The notes under the pieces were generated by a model, which was not told the origin of the DNA, searched no databases, and saw nothing but the letters and a program-made list of their open reading frames with translations. Below are positions 285 through 22,358 of a stretch of DNA of 22,612 nt, one piece after another. The first letter of the stretch is position 1. Every line of letters starts with the position of its first letter. The stretch spans positions 1 through 22,612 of the IMG/VR virus record IMGVR_UViG_3300010153_000130; one strand, written 5' to 3'. The translations under genes were made by a program, and so were the position numbers. Source of the DNA: a virus.

Positions 285-914
285 TTATAAATATTGATTT
301 AACATTTTCTTTTTCAATTTTTTATTCAAATAATAAGCAAAAATATTTTTAGGTTTTTTATCTATATAAAATATATTTTCATCCTTATTATCCCATCTTC
401 TTTTTAACTCTCTACCATAAGGTCTATGTTTATTATTCATAGATCTGGGATGGTACTCTTTCCCATCAACCATCAGTACCTTTGATGGTGACGTTTCACC
501 TAAATGTACAAAGTTTGTAGCTTTATAAATTGTACCTTCATGTCCTTGATTTAAATCAGAATATGAAATTATAACCTGTACATCTGTATTTTGTCTTATC
601 CATTGTAATGTTTTACCTATAAAGAAACTCTCCGTGTTTGTTGGTGTATCATCTATACAACACAATCTTCTCATTTCCCAACATCTTAATGGTTCATCTG
701 GGTGATATTTCTTAGCTGTATCTGGCATTGCTGGTTGCCCATATATAGCTGCTCCAATCATTCTTGGTAATCCAAACATACCATCAGGTGAATACAATGC
801 AAAACATTGTTTATGTTGTATCCCACCAGCGTAATGTGAATAATGATGTTTTTCAATAAAACCTGTTACTGCTTTTTTTACAACAGGTTCTATTGTAAAT
901 TCACTTACTTTCAA
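285..914 (-). CDS. Mom-like DNA modification protein, downstream copy
   Basis: This 209-residue protein resembles the phage Mu Mom family, a GNAT-like fold that converts adenine in DNA to N6-carbamoylmethyladenine and protects phage DNA from restriction. Visible family-type blocks are FIEKHHYSH (H24, Y25), MIGAAIYGQPA (52-62), RRLCCIDDTPTNTESFFIG (R83 central), ISYSD (116-120) and GTIYKATNF (127-135). His-Tyr, Arg, Ser and Asp residues in such blocks are reported to matter in Mu Mom; the mapping here is by eye. The start is TTG at 912-914, behind AAGGA; no ATG lies near it, and the paralogue upstream starts the same way. The frame overlaps that paralogue by 14 bp, which suggests translational coupling. 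The C-terminus is lysine-rich, as expected of a DNA-binding protein. The actual modification is unknown. Confidence 0.72.
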   Translation of the reverse strand: MKVSEFTIEPVVKKAVTGFIEKHHYSHYAGGIQHKQCFALYSPDGMFGLPRMIGAAIYGQPAMPDTAKKYHPDEPLRCWEMRRLCCIDDTPTNTESFFIGKTLQWIRQNTDVQVIISYSDLNQGHEGTIYKATNFVHLGETSPSKVLMVDGKEYHPRSMNNKHRPYGRELKRRWDNKDENIFYIDKKPKNIFAYYLNKKLKKKMLNQYL

Positions 915-1524
915 TATTTTTCCTTTTTAATTTCTTATCCAAGTAGTAAATATAAATATGTTTCTCACAAGTCTTTTTCCAATAGACATCTGAATCTTTA
1001 TCTTCCAATCTTTGTCTTATAATTTCAGCGTATGGTGAATCTTTTCTTAATGTTCTTCTATGATATTTCTTACCATCCACAATTAACACCTTATCACTCC
1101 CAGTCATATCATAATGAATAAAATTAGAAGCCTTATAAATAGTTCCATTATGATTATATTCAGGATCTGCATAAGATACAACAACTTGATAATCCGTGTG
1201 TTTATTCAACCATTTTAAAGTCTTACCAATGAAATAACTTTCTGTATTTTTAAGAGTATCATCAATACAACACAACCTATTTAATTCTAATACCTTACCA
1301 GACTGATTCCCATATTTATCAGTTCGTTGCCCTTCCATAGATGAAGGAACACCATATATCATAGATCCAATCAATTCATCCATCCCAAACTTACCTTCTT
1401 GAAATAAACCAAAACAATAAGATGTATGTAATCCTTTAACACTATTGGAATAATGATATTTTTCTATAAATGGTTTAACTACCTGAAATGTTGACAATTC
1501 TACTTTGTAATCAGTTACTTTCAA
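901..1524 (-). CDS. Mom-like DNA modification protein, upstream copy
   Basis: This 207-residue paralogue of the next gene aligns with it almost without gaps: FIEKYHYS, LIGSMIYGVP, NRLCCIDDTLKNTESYFIG, VSYAD and GTIYKASNF fall at the same residue numbers (H24, Y25, R83, S117, D120, Y130). All candidate active-site residues are kept in both copies, so neither looks decayed. The start is TTG at 1522-1524 inside the end of a 30-codon ORF. It is chosen because the paralogue begins with the same MKV[ST][DE][FY] sequence, with a GGAG about 10 nt upstream. The two proteins differ most between residues 63 and 80 and in the C-terminal quarter. They may form a heteromer, make different modifications or recognise different sequence contexts; the sequence alone cannot decide. 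Confidence 0.72.
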   Translation of the reverse strand: MKVTDYKVELSTFQVVKPFIEKYHYSNSVKGLHTSYCFGLFQEGKFGMDELIGSMIYGVPSSMEGQRTDKYGNQSGKVLELNRLCCIDDTLKNTESYFIGKTLKWLNKHTDYQVVVSYADPEYNHNGTIYKASNFIHYDMTGSDKVLIVDGKKYHRRTLRKDSPYAEIIRQRLEDKDSDVYWKKTCEKHIYIYYLDKKLKRKNIESK

Positions 1525-19171: not shown

Positions 19172-21106
19172 TTAAGCTATTGAAGTTACTGGTGGTGTCA
19201 TTATTCCCTGTAATTTATTTCTATTAATTACATCGAATTTCATTTCCATTTTAGACACCTTTTCTGTTGCTGCTGCCAACTTATCTGCTTTTTGATTAAA
19301 TTTATTTATAGCACCTACTAATTCCGGTGAATTACCTCCACCCCCACCACCAGCTCCAATGGAAGGTATTGATCTCATAGTCGATCCTGCCGTACCAGTA
19401 ACAGTAGGACTACCCATAGTAAATGTACCACCCATAGCTGTATTCAAACCTCTCAACATCATATTGACAGGTTCCAATATAAATTCTATTAATTTTAACA
19501 ATGGTACTAAAATTCCTAAAACTGTATTTAATACAGGTCCGACTGTATTAGTCAATAAAGATCCTAAAGATTTTAAGCCAGATGTTAATCTTGTCAATGT
19601 TGTTATACCTTTATCACCTACCATTTCCTCAAATCCAGGTTGTCCTGCTAATTCACCAGCCAATGATACTGCTTCTTTCTCATGTGATAAAAACTTAGCA
19701 GCCTGATCAACACTCAAACCAACGGCATCAGCCAAAATCTCTCTTTCTTTGACATTCATTTTCAACCAACTACTCTGACTACCCAATTGGTTTAATTGTT
19801 CTTTTTGTAATGCTTCCAAATCACCAGCCAAAGATAATTCTTGTAATTTTTGTATATTGATTTCTCTACCAAGTAATACTGAAGCTTCAGTTGCTTTCGT
19901 AATTGAATCTTCAAAATTCAATAAATTATCTGCTGCAGTTGCTGCATCTTGCAAACTTATACCAAATTTTCTAGCTTGTACAGCTCCTCTAGCTACATTT
20001 TCTCCCGATGCATCTGTGAATTTAGCAATAGTTTCAGATGATTGAGCTATATCAGTCATTACAGCTTTTGGTGCAACATCACTTGCGTTAGCTAACAACG
20101 CTACCTGTTTAGATAGATTACTAGCCTGTTCAGTTGATAATCCACTTAAAGTTTTAAATGTACCTATTAATTGTGCACCTTCTTCGGTTGATAATCCTAA
20201 GGCTACTGATGTATCTATAACCGAACCAGCCATATTTCGAGCTTCATCAAATCCAATACCAAATTCAGATGTTAATGCAGAAATAGTAGTAACTACATCT
20301 TCCATCCCTTTCCCAAGTTTGGTAGCCTCTACTTCAGCTTCCATTAAATCAGCTCTGATTTCTCCACTATTTAACCCTATAGCACCAAATTCATCAGCAA
20401 TAGCTTGTAATTTGGCATCAAATGATACTAATGCCATTATAGCCAAACCTATACCAGCAGCCATTAACCCAGTAGATGCTGACATACCTTTGAAATTAGA
20501 TAACATATTACCAGTTAAATCATCCAACCCACCACTTGCAGCTTCTATAGCATTATCAGTTTTTAATTGTTTTTCTTTATTAACAAAAGTTTCTTTAGAA
20601 GCTTCTAAAATTGATCTCATTGGATCTTCAGGTGATAATTTATTTATCTGTTCATCTAAATCTTGTTGTTTCACCTTTAAAGCTGTTATATCTATCGTAC
20701 CTTGTTGTATATCATCAACAAAATCTTTCTGTTCTTTTAAAATAGCTATCCTTTTAGGATCTGTTTCTTGTCCAGTAGCACCTGACAATGTGTCCAATAA
20801 TTCTTTCTCAAGACTTAATTGTTTTTGTTTTATACCGAAAAAATCTTTTCCTGTAATATTTAATTTTCTTTGATCTTTTTCTAATGACTTATATGTACTT
20901 TTTATTTCTTTAACTAAATCTTTTTGTTCACTTGTTAATTCATTTTCTTTCTTTTTTAACTCATTAATTCTTTTTTGATTTTTTTCTATTTTGTCAAGAG
21001 TAGGTTGATATACTGTACCACCCTTCGCTATTCTATCATTAATTTCAGCTGATTCTTTTAGAAGTTTATTTAATTCTTTTTGTTCTTTTATTGATAATGC
21101 AGGCAT
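19172..21106 (-). CDS. Tail tape measure protein
   Basis: This 644-residue protein fixes tail length and is probably ejected with the DNA. Residues 1-190 are a charged coiled coil (KNQKRINELKKKENEL and similar). A hydrophobic segment follows at 213-229 (GLMAAGIGLAIMALVSF). The next 270 residues are an Ala/Ser/Gly-rich helical region, and a second long hydrophobic region lies at about 513-557 (LGSLLTNTVGPVLNTVLGIL onward). A Gly-rich stretch (584-591) precedes the C-terminus. This coiled-coil plus transmembrane layout is typical of tape measures. T4 gp29 has 590 residues, so a tail of similar length, about 95 to 100 nm by the 0.15 nm per residue rule, is expected. The start ATG overlaps the previous stop (TAATG), with AGGAG upstream. 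Confidence 0.82.
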   Translation of the reverse strand: MPALSIKEQKELNKLLKESAEINDRIAKGGTVYQPTLDKIEKNQKRINELKKKENELTSEQKDLVKEIKSTYKSLEKDQRKLNITGKDFFGIKQKQLSLEKELLDTLSGATGQETDPKRIAILKEQKDFVDDIQQGTIDITALKVKQQDLDEQINKLSPEDPMRSILEASKETFVNKEKQLKTDNAIEAASGGLDDLTGNMLSNFKGMSASTGLMAAGIGLAIMALVSFDAKLQAIADEFGAIGLNSGEIRADLMEAEVEATKLGKGMEDVVTTISALTSEFGIGFDEARNMAGSVIDTSVALGLSTEEGAQLIGTFKTLSGLSTEQASNLSKQVALLANASDVAPKAVMTDIAQSSETIAKFTDASGENVARGAVQARKFGISLQDAATAADNLLNFEDSITKATEASVLLGREINIQKLQELSLAGDLEALQKEQLNQLGSQSSWLKMNVKEREILADAVGLSVDQAAKFLSHEKEAVSLAGELAGQPGFEEMVGDKGITTLTRLTSGLKSLGSLLTNTVGPVLNTVLGILVPLLKLIEFILEPVNMMLRGLNTAMGGTFTMGSPTVTGTAGSTMRSIPSIGAGGGGGGNSPELVGAINKFNQKADKLAAATEKVSKMEMKFDVINRNKLQGIMTPPVTSIA

Positions 21107-21354
21107 TAATATTTACTCCTATCTATTGGTGGTAAACCATAGGCTTTCCTTGCTTTATCTATGGCATCTTCTGTTTTTTTGGCTTGTTTGTGAAAATTAC
21201 TTAAAGCTATTTTGACAGCTGGATTTTTTAATAAAGCCTTTTCTTTACTTGAAATATTTGATTTTTGTCCTGAAGATAATTTAAAAAGTTTAAATATCTT
21301 TTCTAAAAATCCTTCGGACAAAATATTTCTGGAATTCATATATGATTTTTTCAT
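21106..21354 (-). CDS. Small basic phage protein upstream of the tape measure gene
   Basis: The product is 82 residues from ATG 21352-21354, which has GGAG 9 nt upstream. A TTG five codons earlier (21367-21369) overlaps that GGAG and is unlikely to be the start. The sequence starts MKKSYMNSRNILSEGFLEKIFKLFKLS; the rest is helical and basic (SKEKALLKNPAVKIALSNFHKQAKKTEDAI). No domain is recognised. Its position between the gp26-like gene and the tape measure, and the 1-bp overlap with the latter, suggest a role in tail assembly or a minor structural part. It is not obviously a chaperone by sequence. Confidence 0.6.
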   Translation of the reverse strand: MKKSYMNSRNILSEGFLEKIFKLFKLSSGQKSNISSKEKALLKNPAVKIALSNFHKQAKKTEDAIDKARKAYGLPPIDRSKY

Positions 21355-21403
21355 TGCGAAATTCTCCAATTACTCATATATAAATATTAAGATATGTTAA
21401 AAA

Positions 21404-21628
21404 TTAACGATTAAAGCGGGATTTAAAAGATGGTGATTGGTTGGATTTTTTATTTTGTCTTTCTATTTCTTCTTTTTCTTTTTTTCTAACATCAACCAGT
21501 TTATTCATATAGAATCTTCTCAAATATATTGGCATTGTGTATAATGAATCATGGGTTAAACCAGGCATATTATATGACAATAAAAATATCTCTTCGTGTA
21601 TTTTGGGTTTATGCTCCGGCGTTAGGCC
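21404..21628 (-). CDS. Downstream frame probably fused to the gp26-like protein by frameshift
   Basis: Seventy-four codons are open from just after the T7 run to TAA at 21404-21406. The product starts GLTPEHKPKIHEEIFLLSYN and continues MPIYLRRFYMNKLVDVRKKEKEEIERQ with a basic end. It reads like a real helical phage protein, but the open frame has no ATG until residue 21 and is preceded by a TGA. A +1 (or -2) slip on the T7 run would append it to residue 243 of the gp26-like protein, giving about 317 residues. The alternative is a separate 58-residue protein from TTG 21578-21580, which has AAGAG 9 nt upstream. Gene order, immediately before the tape measure, is that of lambda G/GT-type tail assembly chaperones. 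Confidence 0.55.
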   Translation of the reverse strand, partial: GLTPEHKPKIHEEIFLLSYNMPGLTHDSLYTMPIYLRRFYMNKLVDVRKKEKEEIERQNKKSNQSPSFKSRFNR

Positions 21629-22358
21629 AAAAAAAGTCAGGGGTCATAGGTATAGATACCTCGACCACTTCTCCCTCCAATTCTATTTCTTGTTTTAAAT
21701 CTATATCTGGTGCATTTTTAGTTATACTTTGTCTTAAAAATAATGAATCTCTAGACAACATGTTATCCACAAAATTATTTATGATTGGCCTTTCCGTTTC
21801 ACCATCAACTGAGGTAATCGTGTATTTCAATCTTGTAGTTAATTCAGGAGCTATCTGTATTCCTGACTTTTTGATAGATTCTAATTCACTATCTATCATT
21901 TTTTCATCTTTACCTGTTAATATCTTATGTTTAATTTTAACTTTTGATACTGGTAACTCTAACTCAAATGAATTTGAATTTATACCATCAGGAAGTTTTT
22001 TGAATGGGCAATCTGCTAAATTAAAAGTATGATTAAGTTTATCACCTGTTTTAGGATTAACAACCTCACAAGAATATTCAGGTCCATATGCCAATATCCT
22101 AGCAGCAATCATAACTGCATTTTTATCACCAACAACCAGGTCATTTACACCAACACCTTCTGTGAGAATTAAAGAATCTAATAATTTTTCAATCACAACA
22201 CCTTTTTTGATTAGATTTTGAGATGTCAAAATATCTTCTTCTTTAGCCGTCATATATTTGATTTCTATTTTACCACTTCTCAATGGTGATTTTTCTGGAT
22301 ATAATTTACCTTCACTCGGTAAATCTACTACCTCAGTGTGATACTTGTTTTCAGCCAT
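21609..22358 (-). CDS. 26: gp26-like baseplate/tail assembly protein
   Basis: This 249-residue protein resembles the T4 gp26 family (Pfam T4_baseplate). Conserved-looking blocks are VVDLPSEGKLYPEKSPLRSG (10-29), IEIKYMTAKEEDILTSQNLI (31-50), VGDKNAVMIAARILAYGPEY (76-95), the middle LTGKDEK, LTTRLKYTITSVDGE and the C-terminal FFWPNAG. Family members act in baseplate hub assembly. T4 gp26 has 208 residues, so this one is slightly longer. AGGAGG lies 8 nt before ATG 22356-22358. The gene ends just after a run of seven T in mRNA sense, where a shift of frame would give a longer product. It follows the endolysin gene directly. Confidence 0.78.
   Translation of the reverse strand: MAENKYHTEVVDLPSEGKLYPEKSPLRSGKIEIKYMTAKEEDILTSQNLIKKGVVIEKLLDSLILTEGVGVNDLVVGDKNAVMIAARILAYGPEYSCEVVNPKTGDKLNHTFNLADCPFKKLPDGINSNSFELELPVSKVKIKHKILTGKDEKMIDSELESIKKSGIQIAPELTTRLKYTITSVDGETERPIINNFVDNMLSRDSLFLRQSITKNAPDIDLKQEIELEGEVVEVSIPMTPDFFWPNAGA
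21629..21635 (-). promoter_or_regulatory. Candidate programmed frameshift site (T7 run)
   Basis: In the mRNA sense the sequence is GAC TTT TTT TGG in the gp26 frame. A peptidyl Phe-tRNA on the second TTT can re-pair perfectly after a +1 or -2 slip and then read GGC CTA ACG. A -1 slip instead meets TAA within three codons. The 16 bases after the run are GC-rich (12 of 16), unusual in this genome. An inverted repeat (AGGTAT, two bases, ATACCT) lies 12 nt upstream, at 21648-21661. Confidence 0.5.

Follow-up and report, generated by a model that had tools for sequence, protein, structure and literature searches.

The window analysed here is a 22,612-nt stretch of viral DNA (IMG/VR virus record IMGVR_UViG_3300010153_000130, positions 1 to 22,612). 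Its minus strand carries what is very probably the tail assembly chaperone (TAC) pair of a distant T4-like myovirus, consisting of a short form and a +1-frameshifted long form. The features of the locus are as follows.

22358..21609, minus strand: TAC-N, the gpG-like short form, 249 aa, in the PF12322 family of T4 gp26/gp51 relatives
21404..22358, minus strand: TAC-NC, predicted gpGT-like frameshifted long form, 317 aa, from a translation reading TGGC as one step
21407..21628, minus strand: TAC-C, gpT-like domain in the +1 frame, 74 codons from GGC, with its stop TAA at 21406-21404
21627..21635, minus strand: putative shift site TTT TTT TGG (tallied below over 181 distinct loci; family consensus TTY YTT TGG CCT)
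21635..21629, minus strand: T7 run
21640..21668, minus strand: 5′ hairpin, with outer stem GGTC/GACC and inner stem GGTA/TACC, ending 4 nt before the T7 run
19172..21106, minus strand: probable tape measure protein (weak PHROG tape-measure match, E 0.003), downstream of the chaperone pair

TAC-N matches Pfam PF12322 above the cut-off (E=9e-9), a family matched by both T4 gp26 and T4 gp51, and its PHROG match is PHROG 150, baseplate hub. On the minus strand its 3′ end reads GAC TTT TTT TGG CCT AAC GCC GGA GCA TAA. The +1 frame has a TGA shortly upstream and is open from the T7 run for 74 codons, and the −1 frame at the site reaches a stop after two codons. These frames confirm the initial annotation, which described a gp26-like gene ending just after the run, a 74-codon frame opening at it, and an immediate stop in −1. 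Folded separately with AlphaFold2 (translation table 11), TAC-N gave a model with a pLDDT of 90 and TAC-C a model of three helices with a pLDDT of 86. In a Foldseek search of TAC-N against the PDB, the highest-probability match among those listed was HK97 TAC (2ob9; E 1.3, probability 0.30), which is not significant; YqbN (3klu), a prophage protein that we take to be tail assembly chaperone-like, was also among the matches listed, again without significance. A fold search of the PDB with TAC-C returned no significant match. Of 70 TAC-C members, 14 also match DUF6760 (PF20546; function unknown) weakly, the best at E 5e-4; a link is possible on these sequence matches, which are a lead and not evidence of membership.

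As expected of a gpG/gpGT pair, the TAC gene sits between the tail tube and tape measure genes. The order in annotated relatives is sheath, tube, PF12322 gene, a short or missing ORF, and tape measure, and the window agrees with it; Flavobacterium phage immuto has the same gene order, with the tape measure annotated. A joined CDS for the chaperone pair appears in none of the annotated relatives' records that we examined. A +1 shift would account for TAC-C having been overlooked, or recorded as a short ORF of its own, in immuto, SP-15, LIS04 and Mel-JY01. Between the chaperone and tape measure genes of the window lies an 87-aa ORF (21106-21369, minus strand) with no Pfam or PHROG match.

Relatives were collected by a scan with the window protein, which gave 38 viral contigs, by an alignment scan, from whose yield of at least 599 relatives we kept 80, and from genome assemblies, which gave 13; a distant scan was seeded with Bacillus phage SP-15 and other, much more distant proteins. 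Some contigs recur between scans, and the distinct +1 loci number 181. Located with an HMM of the downstream domain, TAC-C is in the +1 frame at all 124 testable loci of the first sampling. The distant sampling contributed 75 testable loci, with TAC-C in +1 at 66 and in −1 at the other 9. One +1-type phage tail locus (L137) lies in a 2.8-Mb record, the chromosome of a WOR-3 bacterium MAG (CP070664.1), and represents a prophage or a misassembly.

Across the 181 +1 loci TAC-C directly follows TTY-YTT-T. The site reads TTT TTT TGG CCT in 132 of them, TTT CTT TGG CCT in 16 and TTT TTT TAC CCT in 11, and rarer forms include TTC TTT TGG and TTC CTT TGG. A +1 shift calls for a conserved P-site codon able to re-pair one base forward before a slow codon; TTY YTT is present in 179 of the 181 loci, and the third codon begins with T in 180. 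The choice of the second codon departs strongly from background: where it encodes Phe it is TTT in 161 of 161 cases (background 81%, p 4e-15), and where it encodes Leu it is CTT in 18 of 20 (background 22%, p 2e-10). Such a bias suggests that, as in RF2, the tRNA on the second codon slips on YUU-U, although the slip codon is inferred from codon usage. The two exceptions to YTT, TTT TTA TGG and TTT CTA TTC, could slip on the first codon. In SP-15 (L043), LIS04 (L044) and GXN1 (L045) TAC-C is again in +1 and the site is different, with the Phe-Phe pair kept and NCC CGA a few codons on; these phages may slip at UUU-N or at NCC-C. At one locus (L069) an interruption of the PF12322 gene lies about 15 codons upstream of the site and probably reflects a sequencing error or a pseudogene.

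The median dN/dS of the +1 ORF is 0.10 (189 pairs of moderate divergence), and the other two frames of the same DNA give pN/pS values of 1.4 and 2.2. Judged by these ratios, the +1 frame is under purifying selection at the protein level. Conservation, selection and gene order together support what had been predicted for the locus, namely a frameshift that fuses the gp26-like gene to the downstream frame and a lambda G/GT-type role ahead of the tape measure gene, with the chaperone function itself being inferred. Conservation of the T7 run, which had been suggested as a check, did not hold in its strict form, since the sites outside the 132 vary. The prediction would have been refuted by relatives that start at an ATG and lack a slippery run; these were sought and not found in the +1 lineage.

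Frame alone cannot separate a +1 shift from a −2 shift, which reaches the same frame with one more Phe. Phage Mu is usually cited as an example of −2, and on the poly-U run of the window tRNA-Phe could slip two bases back. The variant sites are harder to reconcile with such a slip. TTT CTT TGG or TTC CTT TGG is found in 18 of the 181 loci and TTC as first codon in 7; in these the second-codon tRNA moving two bases back would meet UUC, UCC or UCU and no longer pair, whereas a move of one base forward puts it on UUU in every case. Because the CTT and TTC variants permit re-pairing one base forward and not two back, we favor +1, itself an inference, and regard −2 as unlikely; of the direction first given as "+1 or −2", the part that excluded −1 is supported and the choice is now narrowed. 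The two shifts would differ in their products, the expected +1 junction peptide being of the type ...DFFGLTPEHKPK (window ...DFFGL...), and −2 giving ...DFFFGL.... The same variants bear on slippage by RNA polymerase, which would drop one U at the T7 run with the help of the hairpin just before it. Stem-loop-mediated transcriptional slippage is known from IS elements, and a hairpin followed by T7 does resemble an intrinsic terminator or slippage-prone site in the window and in most relatives. Nonetheless, relatives with TTTCTTT (L022-L027, L083), in which the T runs are only three long, keep the +1 relation, many of them with the hairpin, and elsewhere the run reads TTC TTT, TTT TTA or TTT CTA. 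The CTT and TTC variants thus make transcriptional slippage very unlikely, and we infer that it is the ribosome that slips.

TAC-C could also be a separate gene with an internal start, such as TTG 21580, coupled to the TAC-N stop. Some ATG, GTG or TTG does occur early in the TAC-C frame at 96 of 178 +1 loci, and most cyanophages, which belong to a −1 lineage, carry an ATG close to where the domain begins, which has been annotated as the start of gp51. Yet 82 of the 178 loci lack any start codon ahead of the conserved first helix, a start with a Shine-Dalgarno match occurs in only 10, the shift-site codons are constrained far beyond background, and conservation of the domain begins directly after the shift site. 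With start signals lacking, independent initiation has only a very slim chance of being correct. A last alternative is an assembly error, homopolymer runs being error-prone, or a decayed gene. Both are already refuted by the comparative data and can in practice be set aside, given 181 distinct loci from many assemblies, the isolates immuto and Microcystis phage Mel-JY01, and purifying selection on the +1 frame.

There is strong comparative evidence that the 5′ hairpin in the window's clade is selected and covarying. The inverted repeat of the window beats synonymous recoding (p 0.02, tested on the twin locus L001), and across 178 loci the 30-nt stretch that ends 3 nt ahead of the site is much more structured than synonymous recoding would give (mean z −2.2), with the signal falling to about 0 beyond 24 nt under the same null. 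The 5′ stem typically ends 0–6 nt before the TTY codon (median 3). In an alignment of 28 relatives of the window, 93.5% of cells in the stem are paired, and the percentage paired, the number of both-side changes and the covariation score all lie above each of 500 shuffles; slid structures scored far lower. These shuffles ignore relatedness, and their outcome is to be taken as a strong result, not as a probability. The initial annotation had proposed two stimulators of slippage. Its upstream inverted repeat is present, conserved and covarying, but the GC-rich patch after the T7 run, also present, gives no convincing fold in the clade of the window. In two other +1 clades a covarying hairpin directly follows TGG CCN. 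At about 29 of 178 +1 loci no strong hairpin is found on either the 5′ or the 3′ side, so a hairpin is not universal. We found no rank correlation between 5′ and 3′ hairpin strength, which leaves a strict either/or rule unsupported. The 5′ hairpin was not seen in either −1 group. That it stimulates the shift in the window's clade is probable, an inference made without reporter data.

The −1 groups both use the canonical −1 heptamer, U UUU UUC. In ten loci (L046, L148, L152-L154, L158, L161, L162, L165, L179) it lies at the same Phe-Phe position, with TAC-C in −1. L046 had been considered a separate gene with its own ATG; this was dropped, and with its relatives it is a −1 case. In the cyanophages (L226-L308) and Rhizobium phage LG08 (L228), U UUU UUC is present in 83 of 83 loci with TAC-C in −1, and the examples that were folded have a stem a few nt downstream of the site (11 bp in P-SSM2). 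In the cyanophages and LG08 the tiny gene that follows gp26, annotated as gp51 or hypothetical, corresponds to TAC-C read in −1. A tree built on the PF12322 region places the +1 TTY-YTT clade, L042 included, in one group (99/99). The L046-type −1 group (100/100) adjoins this clade at a weakly supported fork (83/43), the SP-15-like +1 phages fall outside, and the cyanophages and T4 lie across the deepest branch. From this layout, the direction of the predicted shift has changed at least once.

A profile of cyanophage TAC-C matches both the C-terminus of T4 gp51 (hhalign 97%, E 8e-11) and TAC-C of the +1 family (93%, E 2.5e-7), and T4 gp26 is without the domain. Direct matches of TAC-C to T4 gp51, with single sequences or the +1-family profile, were weak and not convincing; only the cyanophage profile bridges the two. 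Since the domain is in gp51 and absent from gp26, two different genes of T4 encode the short and the long form.

We propose that most ribosomes would complete the 249-aa TAC-N and stop at TAA. A minority would pause while YUU (UUU in the window) occupies the P site and UGG the A site, and the P-site tRNA would re-pair one base forward on UUU, entering the +1 frame to make the 317-aa TAC-NC with its three-helix C-terminal domain. The upstream hairpin would refold as the mRNA exits the ribosome and favor the forward slip, replacing the internal Shine-Dalgarno duplex of RF2. By analogy with lambda gpG/gpGT, TAC-N would coat the tape measure protein and TAC-C would recruit tube subunits. In the absence of protein, ribosome-profiling or reporter data, the shift product itself, the ratio of the two products, the action of the hairpin and the binding of tape measure and tube are inferred; a requirement in tail assembly and absence from virions are further traits expected of such a pair.

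Most known tail genes slip backward (−1). The window shares with lambda gpG/gpGT and other TAC-N/TAC-NC pairs overlapping frames between the tube and tape measure genes, and a short protein with a long form that ends in a small helical C-terminal domain; unlike lambda, which shifts −1, it would shift +1 at UUU YUU UGG with a 5′ hairpin, and its TAC-N belongs to PF12322. With T4 gp26/gp51 and cyanophage gp26-gp51 it has the TAC-N family and a homologous TAC-C in common, but TAC-C is fused in frame in T4, reached by −1 at U UUU UUC in cyanophages and by +1 in the window's clade. A parallel in the site is RF2 (prfB), which shares with the window's family a slip of CUU-U or UUU-U onto UUU before a slow UGN codon, with an upstream duplex near the E site. 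RF2 has a CUU UGA stop and an internal Shine-Dalgarno and is autoregulatory, whereas the window has a sense UGG and an mRNA hairpin and is not autoregulatory. Listeria PSA likewise has programmed +1 shifts in phage structural genes (capsid and tail-shaft), but at CCC-U with a 3′ pseudoknot or a stop codon, in other genes with other functions.

Tests of upstream hairpins (SARS-CoV attenuator hairpin; Huang 2018, PMC6321510) likewise placed the hairpin a few nt 5′ of the shift site, where it is expected to promote +1 and oppose −1; they used synthetic constructs, whereas the arrangement in the window is natural and conserved. In those tests upstream hairpins stimulated +1 at CUUUGA in a 70S system (PMC6321510), and their stimulation of +1 and attenuation of −1 (PMC6321510, PMC5009743) fit the distribution of 5′ hairpins seen here. 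Downstream structure attenuated +1 at CUUUGA (PMC6321510), a poor fit with a stimulating role for the 3′ hairpins of the other +1 clades. On balance we think that these loci form a natural, widespread +1 class in which an mRNA hairpin refolding behind the ribosome stands in for the RF2-type duplex, and that as orthologues changed direction between lineages the duplex changed sides too, 5′ for +1 in the window's clade and 3′ for −1 in cyanophages.

Atkins 2016 (PMC5009743) describes G-T frameshifting as widely conserved, with T4 excepted, and the shift in the counterpart of the archaeal myovirus HSTV-2 as very likely +1, so a likely precedent exists for +1 at the chaperone position. Vladimirov, Gautam and Davidson 2022 (Virology 566:9-15), known to us only through the citing papers PMC10885494 and PMC12846349, identified the TAC genes of T4-like phages. 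Citing it, the former states that some T4-like phages have a short gene and a longer fused gene as separate genes, and the latter that poly-T sequences are −1 signals in T4-like phages. As published according to these citing papers, the T4 part of our findings is not new, and the cyanophage part is probably not new either. Within an incomplete coverage of the literature, we found no report of a +1 version in the PF12322 chaperone family, nor of a 5′ hairpin accompanying a +1 site in nature, and the +1 direction, the resemblance of its site to that of RF2, the 5′ hairpin and the switch of direction look new. Reviews treat G-T frameshifting as mostly −1 with T4 as the exception; among T4-like environmental phages, a large clade seems to rely on +1 at a site like that of RF2. 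Related lineages with +1, −1 or separate genes offer a natural comparison for shift direction, site and duplex position.

Elsewhere in the window, positions 285-914 and 901-1524 (minus strand) hold two paralogous genes, arranged in tandem and overlapping, that belong to the Mom DNA-modification family (PF25680, E 2e-34 and 4e-38).
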